DNA of 64,000 nucleotides from contig JAFPBO010000004.1 of assembly GCA_017390475.1 (NCBI GenBank), positions 46,582 through 110,581 of the forward strand, given 5' to 3'. The DNA comes from Loktanella sp. (GTDB lineage: Bacteria; Pseudomonadota; Alphaproteobacteria; Rhodobacterales; Rhodobacteraceae). Made by a program: the position numbers and the translations under genes. Positions 26,536 through 32,470 of the stretch are shown in pieces (within the stretch, counting starts at the first letter, position 1; every line of letters begins with the position of its first letter). The notes under the pieces were generated by a model that had not been told where the DNA came from, made no database searches, and saw nothing but the letters and a program-made list of their open reading frames with translations.

Positions 26536-26741
26536 CAGCCTTTACCACGGGGTGATTGACGACGCGCTGATTTTGCGCCGCATTCGTTACCAGATCCTTA
26601 ATGGCAGCCCAGAAAAGTACAGCGGATTTTATTGGTCGGATCGCAAGGCGGGCTTGTCAAAAATGTGACAGATACTTCGTTAACCTTGTAAAGATCCGCC
26701 GCCCATCGCAGACTGGCTGAAATATTGCGCACGAGGATGCC

Positions 26742-28037
26742 ATGCACACCACTCAACTGTCAGGCACCCGGATTCGCGAAAAACGTATCGAACTGGGCTT
26801 GCGTCAGGCCGCCTTGGCCGCAGCTGTCGGGATTTCGCCATCCTATCTGAACCTGATCGAACATAACCGCCGCCGGATCGGCGGCAAGCTGATGTCGGCG
26901 CTGGCCAGTGAACTGGGCGTTGACGCCGCGACCTTGTCGGAGGGTGCAGATAGTCACCTGCTGGACCAGTTGCGCGCTGCGGCTGACCTGATCGGCGACA
27001 AGGCAGAAGTTACCCGCGCCGAAGAGCTGGCTACCCGCTTTCCTGGCTGGAGCGAGCTGATCACCTTGCAGGCCCGTCGTCTGGCAGTGCTGGAGGGACG
27101 GGTACAGGCGTTGTCCGACCGCATGGCGCATGACCCGTTTCTGGCGACGGCGCTGCATGATGTGATTTCGGCGGTGACAGCAATCCGGTCTACCGCGGCG
27201 ATTCTGGTTGGTCAGGAACAGATCGACGCCGATTGGCAACGCCGGTTCCATGAAAATATCCACACTGACAGTTTGCGGCTGGGCAAAAGCAGCGAGGCGC
27301 TGATCGCCTATCTGGAAGCCCCCGATGACGCCAGTCAGTCGCCTGAAACACCAATGGGGCAGGTCGATGCCTATCTGGCACAGAACAGCTATCATCTGCC
27401 AGCGCTGGAAAACGATGATGCCGATCTGCCCGAGGTGGTCGCGCGGTCCGGTCTGACTGGCGCGGCGGCGGTGCTGCTGGCCGGGGTCTGCAAGCAATAT
27501 GCCGATGATGCCCGCGCCCTGCCGATGGCACCCTTTGCCCAGGCCTGCCTGCAATTGGGGTATGATCCGGCCCGGCTGTCGGCAAAGTTTGGGGTGGATT
27601 TTGCCACGGTCCTGCGGCGGTTGCCCAGTCTGCCGCCCGGCATGGGCCATCCGCCGATGGGGCTGGCGGTCTGCGACGCCTCTGGTGCGCTGTTGTATCT
27701 GAAACCGGTGCCCGGTTTTGCGATGCCGGTGACAGGTGGGGCCTGCTCGCTCTGGCCGTTGTTCAGCGCGCTAAGCCGTCCCAGCCAGCCATTGCGGTCT
27801 ATGGCGGTATTGCCGGGTCCTGTCGCTTTGCCGTTGTTGTGCTATGCCATCGCGGTGCCGATCACCCAGCATCAGTTTGACATGCCCCCGGTCCTGCGCA
27901 GCTATATGCTTGTGCTGCCCGGCCCGTCCGAGGACGCGGCGCAACCTGTGCCAGTCGGCGTGTCCTGCCGGATCTGTCCGCGCGCCGATTGCACCAGCCG
28001 CCGCGAACCTGCCATCATCGGCCTAAGCACGCTTTGA
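26742..28037 (+). CDS. XRE-family regulator with ScfR-like C-terminus and a histidine-kinase DHp-like middle segment
   Basis: A 431-residue regulator. Residues ~8-62 are an XRE helix-turn-helix (IREKRIELGLRQAALAAAVG...). Residues ~135-195 align by eye with the HisKA dimerization/phosphoacceptor domain of the kinase 2.7 kb downstream: LHDVISAVTAIRS against SHELRTPMTSIRS, sharing the His (H139), acidic next residue, T-IRS, IL and later QRR/RL positions. The C-terminal part resembles short-chain acyl-CoA regulators (ScfR) and ends in the CRICPRADCTSR cysteine motif. The proline of the H-box is absent. The gene heads a cluster with a response regulator and transporter-kinase. A signalling link is inferred. 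Confidence 0.8.
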   Translation: MHTTQLSGTRIREKRIELGLRQAALAAAVGISPSYLNLIEHNRRRIGGKLMSALASELGVDAATLSEGADSHLLDQLRAAADLIGDKAEVTRAEELATRFPGWSELITLQARRLAVLEGRVQALSDRMAHDPFLATALHDVISAVTAIRSTAAILVGQEQIDADWQRRFHENIHTDSLRLGKSSEALIAYLEAPDDASQSPETPMGQVDAYLAQNSYHLPALENDDADLPEVVARSGLTGAAAVLLAGVCKQYADDARALPMAPFAQACLQLGYDPARLSAKFGVDFATVLRRLPSLPPGMGHPPMGLAVCDASGALLYLKPVPGFAMPVTGGACSLWPLFSALSRPSQPLRSMAVLPGPVALPLLCYAIAVPITQHQFDMPPVLRSYMLVLPGPSEDAAQPVPVGVSCRICPRADCTSRREPAIIGLSTL

Positions 28038-28119: not shown

Positions 28120-28488
28120 ATGGGCAAGCGTGTCCTTCTGATCGAGGATGAGCCAAACATCATCGAGGCGATTTGTTTCATTCTGTCCCGCGACGGCTGG
28201 ACGGTACACACGCATGAGGATGGCCAATCCGCCATGGCCAAGGTCCTGGCCCTGCCGCCGGATATGATCATTCTGGATGTCATGCTGCCGGGGCGCAGCG
28301 GATTCGACATCCTGCGCGAATTGCGCAGCACCGATGTGACCAAGGATATCCCGGTCATGATGCTGACCGCGCGCGGACAGGAAAAGGACCGGGAACTGGC
28401 CTTGCGGCTGGGGGCGACGCATTTCATGACCAAACCATTTTCCAACAGTGAGGTGCGTGATTACGTGCGTGCCATGATGGACGCATGA
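28120..28488 (+). CDS. Single-domain response regulator (receiver only)
   Basis: A 122-residue receiver. Acidic pocket ED (9-10), phospho-acceptor D53 (IILDVMLPG), T83 (MLTARG) and K105 (MTKPF) are all intact. There is no output domain, so it probably acts by protein contact or as a phosphorelay step. A GGGGAGG site precedes ATG 28120. Its stop overlaps the start of the small membrane protein gene by 4 bp, and the SLC5-kinase follows, so this is the likely cognate receiver. Confidence 0.93.
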   Translation: MGKRVLLIEDEPNIIEAICFILSRDGWTVHTHEDGQSAMAKVLALPPDMIILDVMLPGRSGFDILRELRSTDVTKDIPVMMLTARGQEKDRELALRLGATHFMTKPFSNSEVRDYVRAMMDA

Positions 28489-28754
28489 AACCGGCCGGGA
28501 AAATGCCGGTCTTTCTGGAACGCGCCAATTACCGCCAGCGCCGTCTTGGAGATGCCGCGCGCTGTCTGCCGATGCTGGGGGCCGTGTTATGGCTGATTCC
28601 GCTTTTGTGGCAGGCCGACGGGACCGAGCCCCGGTCAAATGCCGGCACGCTGACCTATATCTTTGTGGTCTGGGTTCTGCTGATCGGGCTGGCCGCAATC
28701 CTGGCGCAGGTGCTGCGCGACGATGATGCGAAACCCGACGACGCACAACGCTGA
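28485..28754 (+). CDS. Small two-helix membrane protein between receiver and transporter-kinase
   Basis: An 89-residue protein. A basic N-terminus (MKPAGKMPVFLERANYRQRR) is followed by two hydrophobic segments (LPMLGAVLWLIPLLW and YIFVVWVLLIGLAAILAQVL), then an acidic C-terminus. Its start overlaps the response regulator stop (ATGA) and its own stop overlaps the SLC5-kinase start (TGATG), so translation of all three is coupled. The position resembles small subunits that partner SSS transporters, but I cannot assign it to a family. Confidence 0.8.
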   Translation: MKPAGKMPVFLERANYRQRRLGDAARCLPMLGAVLWLIPLLWQADGTEPRSNAGTLTYIFVVWVLLIGLAAILAQVLRDDDAKPDDAQR

Positions 28755-31426
28755 TGGTGTCGTTCAATATCCTGATTCTGGTCTCGCTCAGCTATGTTGC
28801 GGCGCTGTTCGCGGTGGCGTTTCTTGCGGAACGGCGCGCCGCGGCAGGGCGGGCGAACTGGCTACGCTCTCCGCTGATCTATACGTTGTCGCTGAGTATC
28901 TATTGCACTGCCTGGACGTTTTACGGCGCCGTGGGTTATGCCGCGCGCTCGGGTCTGGAATTTGTGACGATCTATCTGGGCCCGACGCTGGTGATGGTCG
29001 GCTGGTGGTGGCTGTTGCGGCGGCTGGTGCGAATCGGGCGGGCACAGCGGATCACCTCGATTGCTGACCTGATTTCGTCGCGCTTTGGAAAATCGCGCCG
29101 GTTGGGGGTGATTGTCACGCTGATCGCCGTGATCGCCGCGACCCCTTATATCGCCTTGCAGATCCAGTCCGTCACCCTGTCACTGGCCGTTTTTGCCGAG
29201 GCGGAAGGTGCCGCATGGACTGACGGCGATTTTGGCCGCGCCGCAATGTGGTTCGCCGCTGGGCTGGCGGTTTTTACCATTCTGTTCGGGACCCGCAATC
29301 TGGACGTCAACGAACGCCACCACGGGATCGTCATGGCCATCGCAGTTGAAGCGGTGGTCAAACTGGTCGCGCTGCTGGCGGTAGGGATTTTTGTGGTCTG
29401 GGGGCTGGGCGGCGGTCCGGCGCAGATGATGCTGGTGATCGACGCGGCTGATCTGGATCTGTGGGATCAGGATCCCAGCCGCTGGGTCGGGCTGATCTTT
29501 GTCTCGGCGGCGGCATTCATCTGCCTGCCGCGGATGTTTCAGGTCATGGTTGTCGAGAATGACGACGAAGGTCATCTGCGCATGGCAAGCTGGGCCTTTC
29601 CCACCTATCTGTTCGCGATGAGCCTGTTTGTCGTGCCCATTGCGGTGATGGGGCTGGCGATGATGCCCACAGGCAGCAACCCCGATCTGTTCGTGCTGAC
29701 TCTACCGCTCAGCCAGGGCGCCAATGGTTTGGCGATGCTGTCGTTTCTGGGTGGGTTTTCATCGGCCACCTCGATGGTCATCGTGGCGACGATTGCGCTG
29801 GCGACGATGGTGTCGAACCATATTGTCGTTCCGCTGTGGCTGGCGATGCAACCCGACCGGCAGGGGGCGATGTCTGGCGATGTGCGGCAATTGACGCTGC
29901 TGGCACGGCGGCTGTCGATAGCGGGTTTGCTGGCGCTGGGCTTTGTCTATTACCGATTGTCGGGGGGTGGTACGGCATTGGCGGCGATCGGCCTGATCTC
30001 TTTTGCCGGATCGGTCCAGGTGTTGCCCGCGCTGGTTGGCGGGATTTTCTGGCGTGGCGCGACACGGCCCGGGGCCGCTGCGGCCCTGCTGACCGGGCTG
30101 GTGATCTGGCTCTGGACCATGTTTCTGCCCAGCTTTGGCCCCGGTGCGGTGATCCCCGTCGGTGTGCTGGAATCCGGGCCGTTCGGCATTGGCTGGCTGC
30201 GGCCACAGGCACTGTTCGGAATCGCGGGGATTGACCCGCTGGTACATGGGCTGCTGTGGTCGATGTTGCTGAACTCTGCAGCCTTGATCGGGGTGTCGCT
30301 GGCGACGTTTCCGACGCCGCTGGAACGGTTGCAGGGCGCACAATTCGTGAATGTCTTTGATCGTTCACCAAGCGCGCGGACCTGGTCAAGGTCCGTGGCG
30401 GATGCCGAGGATTTGCTACTGATGTCACAACGCATCATCGGCAGCGCCGAAGCACAGCGGGTCTTTGCCCGCGAGGCGATCCAGCAAGGCACCCCCGGTC
30501 AATTGCCCAAGGCGACGCCTGATTTCGTGGCACGGTTGGAACGTGAACTGGCGGGGTCTGTCGGTGCCGCCACCGCCCATGCGATGATCGGCCAGTTGAC
30601 CGGCGGTAGCGGCGTGTCGGTCGAAGATCTGATCGCGGTGGCCGATGAGGCCGCGCAGATCCTGGAATATTCCAACCGGCTTGAAGCGAAATCTGCCGAA
30701 CAGGAGGCCACCGCCCGCGCCCTGCGCGACGCCAATGCCAAGCTGACGGCGCTGTCGATCCAGAAAGACGCATTTCTGAGCCAGATCAGCCATGAATTGC
30801 GCACGCCGATGACCTCTATCCGGTCATTTTCGGAAATTCTGCGTGATGCAGATATGTCGGCCGCCGATCAGCGCCGCTATGCCGGGATTATTCTGGAGGA
30901 ATCGATCCGCCTGTCGCGGCTGCTGGATGATCTGCTGGACCTGTCGGTGCTGGAAAACGGACAGGTCGTGCTGCGTCGGCAGACCGGGCAATTGTCGGAC
31001 CTGCTTGACCGGGCAGTGGCGGCGGCGGGCCTGCATGACCGCAATCTGACCGTGCTGCGCGATGCCGGGGCCGAGGACATCCAGATCACCACCGACCTTG
31101 ACCGGCTGGTACAGGTCTTTATCAACCTGATTTCGAATGCTGCGAAATATTGCGATGCGAAAATGCCCGCGCTGACGATCCGGGTCAGCAGCGCCCAAGG
31201 CCAGCACCGGATTGATTTTCTGGACAACGGGATCGGAATCGCCGCGCAGAACCAGGAACTGATTTTTGAGAAATTTTCCCGTCTGGCCGATGAATCAAAG
31301 GCTGGCGGTGCGGGGCTTGGTCTGGCGATCTGCCGCGAGATCATGCACCGGCTGGATGGCGACATCATCTATCTGCCCGGCACCTCCGGCACGGCGTTCC
31401 GTGTGACCTTGCCTGCCGCCCCTTAG
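28754..31426 (+). CDS. SLC5/SSS transporter-like sensor histidine kinase (CbrA/CrbS-like)
   Basis: An 890-residue fusion. Residues 1 to ~510 form a sodium:solute symporter domain with about 12-13 membrane segments (SLSIYCTAWTFYGAVGYAA is SSS-like). HisKA follows with ISHELRTPM (H680), then the ATPase domain: N-box FINLISNAAKY, DNGIGIA and GAGLGLAICREIM. Similar architecture occurs in CbrA and CrbS, which sense nutrients such as histidine or acetate. There is no receiver in the protein; the upstream single-domain receiver is the probable partner. Ligand unknown. Confidence 0.9.
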   Translation: MVSFNILILVSLSYVAALFAVAFLAERRAAAGRANWLRSPLIYTLSLSIYCTAWTFYGAVGYAARSGLEFVTIYLGPTLVMVGWWWLLRRLVRIGRAQRITSIADLISSRFGKSRRLGVIVTLIAVIAATPYIALQIQSVTLSLAVFAEAEGAAWTDGDFGRAAMWFAAGLAVFTILFGTRNLDVNERHHGIVMAIAVEAVVKLVALLAVGIFVVWGLGGGPAQMMLVIDAADLDLWDQDPSRWVGLIFVSAAAFICLPRMFQVMVVENDDEGHLRMASWAFPTYLFAMSLFVVPIAVMGLAMMPTGSNPDLFVLTLPLSQGANGLAMLSFLGGFSSATSMVIVATIALATMVSNHIVVPLWLAMQPDRQGAMSGDVRQLTLLARRLSIAGLLALGFVYYRLSGGGTALAAIGLISFAGSVQVLPALVGGIFWRGATRPGAAAALLTGLVIWLWTMFLPSFGPGAVIPVGVLESGPFGIGWLRPQALFGIAGIDPLVHGLLWSMLLNSAALIGVSLATFPTPLERLQGAQFVNVFDRSPSARTWSRSVADAEDLLLMSQRIIGSAEAQRVFAREAIQQGTPGQLPKATPDFVARLERELAGSVGAATAHAMIGQLTGGSGVSVEDLIAVADEAAQILEYSNRLEAKSAEQEATARALRDANAKLTALSIQKDAFLSQISHELRTPMTSIRSFSEILRDADMSAADQRRYAGIILEESIRLSRLLDDLLDLSVLENGQVVLRRQTGQLSDLLDRAVAAAGLHDRNLTVLRDAGAEDIQITTDLDRLVQVFINLISNAAKYCDAKMPALTIRVSSAQGQHRIDFLDNGIGIAAQNQELIFEKFSRLADESKAGGAGLGLAICREIMHRLDGDIIYLPGTSGTAFRVTLPAAP

Positions 31427-31477: not shown

Positions 31478-32470
31478 ATGACTGAACGTTCTCATATCTC
31501 CATTCTGCGACGAATGGCGGGGCTGGCCGTTGGCCCGGCCCCAGCCAGCCCGTTGACGACATCGCGCGCGGTGCGGCTGGCGCTCGTCACGGCGGCCAGT
31601 GATGCGGGTGGTCTGGTCCTGAATGTTGCCAGTACCGGCGATGAATCGGGCAAGCTGGATGAAATTCTGGCCCAGCTGGACCCCGGCTTGCTGCTGATTG
31701 GTCTGTACCGCCATGCTCAGCTGGCGGGGTTCGTGGCGGTCGACATGCAGTTGCGCGCTGCTGTTCTGGAAATGCAGACAATGGGGCAGCTGCTGGATCG
31801 CACCGCCGAGGACCGGCCACCCACCGGCACGGACAAGGCGCTTTGCGATCCGCTGGTGGCGGCTTTTGTGACAGCATTGCCTGCGGCTGTGATCGGGACC
31901 AGCTATGTAGGTTGGGTTGATGATGTCACGCCGGGCGACAGGCTCGCCGATATCCGCGCCGCAGGATTGCAGTTGCGCGACGGCGACTACCGCTTGTTGC
32001 GGATGATTGTGGATCTGGGTGCGGGGGACCGGCAGGGGGCGGTGCTGTTGGTGCTGCCATTGCTCGCGCAAACGACGGACCCTGTCATCGCGATCACGCA
32101 ACCTGCCGACTGGCAAACGGCGCTTGCCGCTGCGGTGGAGGTTGCGCCCGCCAGTCTGACAGCGCGATTGCACCGATTCACGCTGCCGCTGGGGCAGGCG
32201 CAGGCCCTGAAAGCAGGGCAGGTGCTGACCTTGCCGGGTTGCACCGTCACATCGGTCCGACTGATCGCGCCGGATGGCCACAGCGTTGCGCGCGCGAAGC
32301 TTGGGCAGATGGGCGGCAAACGCGCTGTGCGCATCACGCTGGAAAAGAGCGAAAACATGCATGAACTGGTTGTGGATGGCGGGGACGAATTGCAGCACAC
32401 GCTGCCGATGGACATCGGGCTGCCGGAGGCAGAGGATAAGTTGGACGCAGATCAGGACAGTGGCACGTAA
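31478..32470 (+). CDS. FliM/FliN-type SpoA-domain protein
   Basis: A 330-residue protein. The C-terminal ~70 residues resemble the FliN/FliM SpoA fold: FTLPLGQAQALKAGQVLTLPG, then ARAKLGQMGGKRAVRI. The N-terminal two thirds are not recognisable beyond a FliM-like length. SpoA domains build flagellar C-rings and type III secretion sorting platforms. No flagellar operon is present here. The gene follows the SLC5-kinase by 51 bp on the same strand. The family call is moderate. Confidence 0.65.
   Translation: MTERSHISILRRMAGLAVGPAPASPLTTSRAVRLALVTAASDAGGLVLNVASTGDESGKLDEILAQLDPGLLLIGLYRHAQLAGFVAVDMQLRAAVLEMQTMGQLLDRTAEDRPPTGTDKALCDPLVAAFVTALPAAVIGTSYVGWVDDVTPGDRLADIRAAGLQLRDGDYRLLRMIVDLGAGDRQGAVLLVLPLLAQTTDPVIAITQPADWQTALAAAVEVAPASLTARLHRFTLPLGQAQALKAGQVLTLPGCTVTSVRLIAPDGHSVARAKLGQMGGKRAVRITLEKSENMHELVVDGGDELQHTLPMDIGLPEAEDKLDADQDSGT

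Follow-up and report, generated by a model that had tools for sequence, protein, structure and literature searches.

In the standard form of two-component output, the signal passes through the Asp of a receiver that is fused to a DNA-binding domain, and for single-domain receivers the path to DNA is often unclear. ChpT and Spo0B are separate DHp-like proteins with a degenerate catalytic-like domain, and they pass phosphate to another receiver. PTS-controlled PRD transcription factors are regulated through a phospho-His, the phosphate coming from the PTS and not from a receiver.

CrbS/CrbR (MxtR/ErdR), which has an SLC5-type kinase, regulates acs in Gammaproteobacteria via a LuxR-type regulator according to the accessible text of PMC5715377, and a homologue serves growth on acetate in Sinorhizobium fredii according to that of PMC9100948. 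The gene for CbrA, an SLC5/STAC kinase, is preceded by a small gene, cbrX, and the parts of the CbrA preprint that are accessible (PMC13022988) describe CbrX as translationally coupled to CbrA and PDB entry 10ED as the SLC5-STAC part of CbrXA. Regulators of the ScfR/IsaR family, namely PrpR, RamB and PccR, are described in the available text of PMC6765138 as having an HTH_3 domain, an ScfRs C-terminus and four cluster cysteines, and there and in PMC10370305 as belonging to acetate and propionate metabolism, with a bipartite operator of two near-identical boxes. For MtPrpR, the same source places a [4Fe4S] cluster on Cys363 and C447-X2-C-X4-C, and CoA between the DIII (IrrE/M78-like) and GAF-like domains (PMC6765138).

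The locus described here, found in a stretch of 64,000 nucleotides from Loktanella sp. (the window), looks like an alphaproteobacterial version of the CrbS/CrbR acetate system that differs in its output. An SLC5-type kinase and, probably, acs as a target are common to both. However, CrbR is a LuxR-type response regulator (accessible text of PMC5715377 and PMC9100948), whereas the present receiver lacks a DNA-binding domain and DNA would be bound by a DHp-bearing ScfR, and CrbS is termed a hybrid (PMC5715377), whereas no receiver domain was found on the window kinase in a Pfam scan. Because the kinase is of the SLC5 type and CrbS/CrbR has a role in acs and acetate regulation, the locus may be seen as an acetate system in which the DNA-binding part has been exchanged. 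The regulator shares with PrpR, RamB and PccR the HTH_3 domain, the ScfRs C-terminus, the four cysteines, an operator of two near-identical boxes and, as its likely context, acetate metabolism, but differs in having a DHp, which the accessible text of PMC6765138 and PMC10370305 does not describe for ScfR/IsaR regulators, and in giving no M78/DIII match. In a literature search judged mostly from titles and the first lines of abstracts, with subscription literature largely outside it, we found no description of a DHp in an ScfR, nor of an ScfR with a DHp combined with a receiver-only regulator and an SLC5 kinase. Each part is of a known kind and it is the combination that was not met in the literature covered.

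The operon in the window

All of the features listed here are on the forward strand of the window. The regulator is an XRE/ScfR-type protein of 431 aa (26742-28037), with an HTH_3 DNA-binding domain at residues 11-63 (26772-26930, 47.6 bits) and an ScfRs C-terminus, both above their cut-offs. Between these lies the HisKA/DHp-like segment, residues 131-188 (27132-27305), in which the codon for His139 occupies 27156-27158. The gene for a receiver-only response regulator of 122 aa with D53 as phosphoacceptor (28120-28488; Response_reg, 92.6 bits) follows, and then an ORF for a predicted membrane protein of 89 aa (28485-28754), which overlaps the start of the kinase gene by one base and has a homologue in 81 of 90 loci. 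Its position, though not its sequence, recalls CbrX. The SLC5-like sensor histidine kinase (890 aa, 28754-31426) contains HisKA and HATPase_c, and its DHp, residues 671-736 with phosphoacceptor His680, is encoded at 30764-30961 (HisKA, 65.9 bits). The first-pass annotation had put the kinase 2.7 kb downstream of the regulator, which agrees with this position. Directly 3' of the kinase gene, Pfam identifies a FliM/N C-terminal-domain protein (31478-32470), and a homologue of it was present in 40 of 60 loci with long flanks (L031-L090).

A profile of 28 operon kinases matched 10ED over positions 3-614 (E 1.3e-107), and the operon kinase is therefore an SLC5-STAC sensor fused to HisKA-HATPase_c. 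The Pfam SSF profile recognized five of the 28 kinases, and the window kinase was not among them.

Receiver and gene order

A search with the regulator gave a match in 140 of 194 genomes, a count that includes its own genome and paralogous ScfRs. Among 204 loci with an XRE regulator of this type, 187 have a receiver gene on the same strand no more than 1.5 kb downstream and four more have one within 4.5 kb, leaving 13 in which it is not so placed. In a set of 170 loci that includes the ordinary ScfR L089, same-strand genes downstream were the receiver, at a distance of at most 700 bp, in 161 and the kinase, at a distance of at most 1400 bp, in 156, with some contigs ending early. The XRE, receiver, SLC5-kinase order expected by the first-pass annotation is thus conserved in Rhodobacteraceae and also extends to other families of the class. 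The usual immediate neighbour of the XRE gene is the receiver gene rather than the kinase gene.

The receiver is phosphorylatable, as all 197 aligned rows, one of which is the window reference, have D10, D53 and K105. In every one of the 187 linked loci the protein ends no more than 48 residues beyond the K-P-F-type motif, so these receivers are receiver-only proteins without an output domain. Mutual information, calculated for 151 loci with XRE, kinase and receiver, showed flat covariation between XRE and receiver and likewise in the kinase-receiver control. Of the top 25 XRE-receiver pairs, 20 % fell on positions that we presume to form the receiver interface; the expected share is 21 %, and the kinase-receiver control gave 32 %.

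A segment related to the HisKA domain

Residues 131-188 of the regulator, compared at the sequence level by profiles and in pairs, are a divergent HisKA/DHp segment. The near-gapless alignment with the kinase HisKA domain reported in the first-pass annotation was recovered from D131 on, over the region around H680 of the kinase and with one single-residue gap, and so were the shared His, an acidic residue at H+1 and T-x-I-R-S, to which D at H-8, I-L, Q-R-R-F/Y and R-L can be added. His139 aligns with the kinase phosphoacceptor His680. BLASTP of the window regulator against the window kinase gave E = 3e-4, and a Smith-Waterman comparison of residues 127-200 with the kinase gave z = 7.7, with none of 1000 shuffles as good.

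With Pfam, the excised window segment scored 15.8 bits against HisKA, below the gathering cut-off of 26.9, and the full-length window protein gave no HisKA match at E 10. Of nine full-length relatives scanned, five matched at E 0.1 or better and four had no match, and the sole one over the cut-off was the L088 regulator from another family (33.8 bits), which also carries HTH, M78 and ScfRs. The HisKA-type profile match anticipated in the first-pass annotation is therefore found in this relative, with the window protein itself remaining below the cut-off. When 78 segments were scanned singly, 27 had a HisKA match of E 0.1 or less (lowest 5.9e-5); FAD-SLDH was the next family, with 14 of 78 (best 0.0027). 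Used as a phmmer query, the window kinase retrieved the regulators L088 (8.8e-14), L084 (9.3e-7) and L085 (1.6e-6).

Profile-profile comparison with hhalign aligned 78 Rhodobacteraceae segments with 56 kinase DHps over 55 columns (E = 2.3e-11, 97.3 % probability), and 10 distant segments with the kinase DHps over 61 columns at 52 % identity (E = 1.9e-20, 99.3 % probability). Ten column-shuffled and two reversed control alignments gave at most 1.2 % probability. These controls and the shuffled Smith-Waterman comparisons led us to reject chance or composition as the source of the likeness. The HisKA likeness is weak in the window protein taken alone and is firm because of the family evidence from the relatives and hhalign. 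Together with the pairwise comparisons and the whole-genome profile search described below, it upholds the DHp homology originally proposed.

HATPase_c was not found in the window regulator, nor in scans of ten relatives and paralogues. When the PDB was searched with the segment profile, no kinase was returned, and the sole match, to an unrelated exonuclease, was weak (E 0.32). By eye, the segment is flanked by the HTH side and by an 'SPxEEVxxF...N' stretch also present in the ordinary ScfR L089, and because this flanking stretch is shared the segment looks like an insertion. One ORF of 962 aa (L079:5077-7965) was considered as a fusion and rejected, as it probably has a mis-called start, with the HTH at 590-642.

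Three further ORFs were noted at related loci. The L238 ORF (8933-11011), beside a receiver gene and an SLC5 kinase gene, encodes PAS, a weak HisKA (20.5 bits, below the cut-off) and an RNase_T exonuclease domain, with no HATPase_c match. The segment profile also matches ORFs of similar length at L228:2708-4819, a locus with the XRE regulator, and at L240:4164-6266. By a simple search, neither the L238 nor the L240 ORF has H-E/D in residues 150-400, and proteins of the L238 type are possibly His-less DHps of the same pathway.

Conservation of His139

The 204 loci used to assess conservation correspond to 199 distinct proteins. Position 139 is H in 195 loci, F in four, Y in two, Q in two and N in one, and H in 190 of the 199 distinct proteins. 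With sequence weighting, H accounts for 93 % and the column is the sixth of 70 by conservation. Conservation of this residue in orthologues had been named beforehand as the point on which the interpretation could fail, and it held. D131 is present in 202 loci and I154 and F169 in all 204, and the top conserved columns of the segment are I154, F169 and L180. Such a pattern resembles a structural core and, with loss of the His in a few lineages, is what would be expected if the inserted DHp were a relic whose sole function is to dimerise the transcription factor as a hairpin, with no part in signalling. But this gives no evident reason for a His in 195 loci or for an adjoining receiver gene in 187, and we consider it the least probable of the explanations weighed here.

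In the HisKA kinases tested in PMC3510030, the acid at H+1 is required for kinase but not phosphatase activity and T/N at H+4 for phosphatase activity only, as stated in the accessible part of that source. In the regulators, H+1 is acidic in 152 of 204 loci (weighted 63 %; D140 in the window), H+4 is S in 150, T in 46 and N in four (S/T in 196, weighted 96 %; S in the window), and Pro at H+5, at 0 % weighted, is gone throughout the XRE family. The DHps of the operon kinases have H-E-L-R-T-P in 56 of 56. The window motif H-D-V-I-S resembles the H-D-L-I-S of a PF10090 (ChpT-type) protein of the same genome. PF10090 itself was not found in the XRE regulator by Pfam scan, and the only match in the genome is that other gene (C42:129670-130014). 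A His that is kept while the kinase acid is relaxed fits a module that would take or hold phosphate without autophosphorylation.

The loci lacking the His are of several kinds. Two have an intact operon (L030, with N, and L087, with Y). Four, all with F (L090, L208, L223 and L230), form one family in which the XRE gene is apart from the receiver and kinase genes; in L208, L223 and L230 these are some 8-10 kb off in the same stretch, the order in L208 being kinase, receiver, acs, ABC genes, XRE. For L233 (Y), L234 (Q) and L235 (Q), no receiver or kinase gene was present in the fetched DNA. As the family of four keeps the module with F at 139, the His is dispensable for retention of the module. 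A naive count associates the His with receiver linkage (linked, 185 H and two non-H; unlinked, 10 and seven; Fisher p 2e-7). This association was rejected because it is not significant on the tree (median p 1), where linkage was counted to 4.5 kb and the four changes are too few to reach 0.05.

The main rival of a phosphotransfer relay is that the DHp-like bundle binds the receiver, phosphorylated or not, as an allosteric cofactor and that H139 carries no phosphate, being kept for the docking surface or as a helper in receiver dephosphorylation. Homology and gene order are equally expected if this is so, S/T is retained at the phosphatase position in the 196 loci noted above, and the His is missing in two intact operons and in the family with the looser cluster. 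The near-invariance of H139, at rank 6 of 70, is less readily accommodated, and at H+4 the T/N reported for phosphatase activity (PMC3510030, accessible part) is mostly replaced by S. We regard docking without phosphotransfer as rather unlikely.

Relationship to the kinase of the operon

Searched against the whole window genome, the segment profile found the XRE regulator (2.8e-41), then the kinase of its own operon (2.6e-6) and then nothing better than 0.34. A profile of 10 distant segments, run against 385 genomes from across the class, had XRE-type ORFs as its top matches (3e-33 to 1e-19, and two more near 1e-16). Interleaved with these and then below them were matches of 3e-19 to 3e-13 to ORFs of some 900-1150 aa, identified as the SLC5-type kinase at every locus fetched, and after them the next among the matches listed was at 8.6e-12. 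From both rankings the segment is therefore a relative of the DHp of the operon kinase in particular, and we infer that it was derived from that DHp. In viral contigs, 25 pattern matches included no confirmed relative.

Because its nearest counterpart is the DHp of the operon kinase, the module would be expected to have the same receiver-docking surface, together with H139 as phosphoacceptor. The same closeness would also be predicted if the two modules paired directly, in a mixed DHp bundle or with phosphorylation in trans, so that the regulator would be retained at the membrane or receive its phosphate independently of the receiver. Contact between DHps has a precedent in RetS-GacS. However, it is usually the receiver gene that adjoins the XRE gene, and the H+1 acid that in the HisKA kinases tested is required for phosphorylation by the catalytic domain (accessible part of PMC3510030) is relaxed. 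We consider direct contact with the kinase improbable.

The C-terminal sensor part

The window regulator scores 39.9 bits against PF09856 (ScfRs; cut-off 24) and, with HTH_3 also above its cut-off, has both domains that define an ScfR. The C-terminal region (27639-28016) includes C335, C409, C412 and C417, which are nearly invariant among 88 sequences and reproduce the pattern of one Cys plus CX2CX4C. Binding of an Fe-S cluster by the window regulator is likely, to judge from these residues. M78 (PF06114) gave no match in the window regulator in the Pfam scan, though it is above the cut-off in six of nine relatives and in the paralogue L089, and the CoA pocket of ScfRs may have been lost or remodelled in the window protein. 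The acyl-CoA-type sensing suggested in the first-pass annotation is accordingly weakened: the window protein keeps the ScfR C-terminus and the four cysteines but gives no M78 match.

The operator and acs

At least one [TC]TGT[AC]AA box was found upstream of 188 of 204 XRE genes, versus 16 in a shuffled set. A pair of boxes with a 32-bp period, a value picked after a scan of periods 8-59 in which the next best gave 13 of 204, is present in 94 of the 204 upstream regions (91 of 199 when distinct proteins are counted) and in none of one shuffled set. In the window, the predicted operator TTGTCAA-N25-TTGTAAA occupies 26654-26692, upstream of the XRE gene, and this is the only occurrence of the exact pair in the genome of 4.13 Mb. 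A tripartite form of the operator was found in 50 of 149 genomes of the family, with one site each, and a reversed control pattern in none. It is absent from the window genome, where the site differs at one position.

Of 30 tripartite-site loci that were read, 28 have the site before the XRE gene and two before acs. When those two are combined with four further sites away from XRE genes, five of the six precede acs, the remaining 16 of the 50 sites being outside this count. The sixth (genome G089, L306:2074-2112) is between the end of a gene for an AMP-forming acyl-CoA synthetase and a sodium:solute symporter gene (SSF, 160.9 bits), and this symporter locus is a possible second target.

The acs genes were also scored with a PWM made from the XRE sites, using the 30 best matches to the acs of L261, of which those of G071 and G067 were already known to carry a site. 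Among them, 14 upstream regions, including that of the window genome, exceed the 99.9th percentile of 1679 control upstream regions and 16 are below it, and 18 exceed the 99th percentile; the controls were upstream regions of ORFs of at least 250 aa from the same loci and are not matched in base composition. Weighted mismatches do not exceed two in seven of the 30, and in each of these none of 100 shuffles was as good. In the window genome, acs has the operator pair with one mismatch (C14:84212-84250), and none of 100 composition-keeping shuffles was as good. The one-mismatch pattern has 12 matches genome-wide, versus eight for the control, so it is not specific alone. In seven genomes judged to lack an XRE regulator with a DHp, six acs upstream regions could be scored and the operator pair was found in none of the six. 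In ten genomes with more distant XREs, 10 of 11 acs upstream regions are without the pair, the exception being L322.

In 150 of 205 loci, the XRE gene has a divergently oriented gene for an ABC-transporter substrate-binding protein beside it (127 of 167 if only loci with sufficient upstream DNA are counted), and acs was inside the fetched DNA in 20 of 162. In L042 (2-6817) and L208 (4792-12067), branched-chain/urea-type ABC transporter genes divergent from the XRE gene lead to acs, and the L208 acs was confirmed as AcsA by NCBIfam. The window contains no homologue of either acs or the ABC-transporter gene; XRE and acs are on different contigs in this genome, and the operator is at both. Judged from the distribution of these sites, the XRE/ScfR regulator probably controls acs. 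Paralogous ScfRs could bind the same operator. Because the operator precedes acs, acetate metabolism is the likely context.

Proposed route of the signal

The preferred reading is a relay in which the SLC5-type kinase would phosphorylate the receiver-only regulator on D53, and the phosphoryl group, or the phosphorylated receiver itself, would then be taken up by the DHp-like module of the XRE/ScfR factor. The modified dimer would bind differently to the paired TTGTAAA operators before its own gene and acs or, in some genomes, to operators in front of divergent ABC-transporter genes leading to acs. Domain homology, conservation of the His, gene order, a phosphorylatable receiver, the operator and its link to acs are seen in the sequences; the direction of phosphate flow, binding of the receiver, the effect on DNA binding and occupation of the operator by the XRE regulator rather than by a paralogue are inferred. 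To a relay that runs from kinase to receiver to His139 and alters the grip on the operators of its own promoter and of acs, we give an even chance. The reading in which a transcription factor with the captured DHp of its own operon kinase is the terminal His acceptor, and the SLC5 kinase and the ScfR Fe-S (perhaps acyl-CoA) module set acs, is put forward tentatively, as falling somewhat short of even.

If the relay operates, the XRE module would be a phosphotransferase like ChpT or Spo0B built into a DNA-binding protein. It is DHp-like, keeps its His and has no catalytic kinase domain, as those proteins do, but is part of a transcription factor, unlike either of them. Regulation through a phospho-His would be shared with the PTS-controlled PRD factors, from which the module differs in fold and in the source of the phosphate.

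If phosphotransfer to H139 is true, it would be a new mode of two-component output, with the phospho-histidine on the DNA-binding protein, and the locus suggests a new route by which a two-component signal can reach DNA. For single-domain receivers, a transcription factor with a receiver-docking and phosphoacceptor module related to that of the kinase itself would be a common and testable possibility. In many Alphaproteobacteria, the system is a candidate mechanism for the control of acetate activation, with a defined operator.
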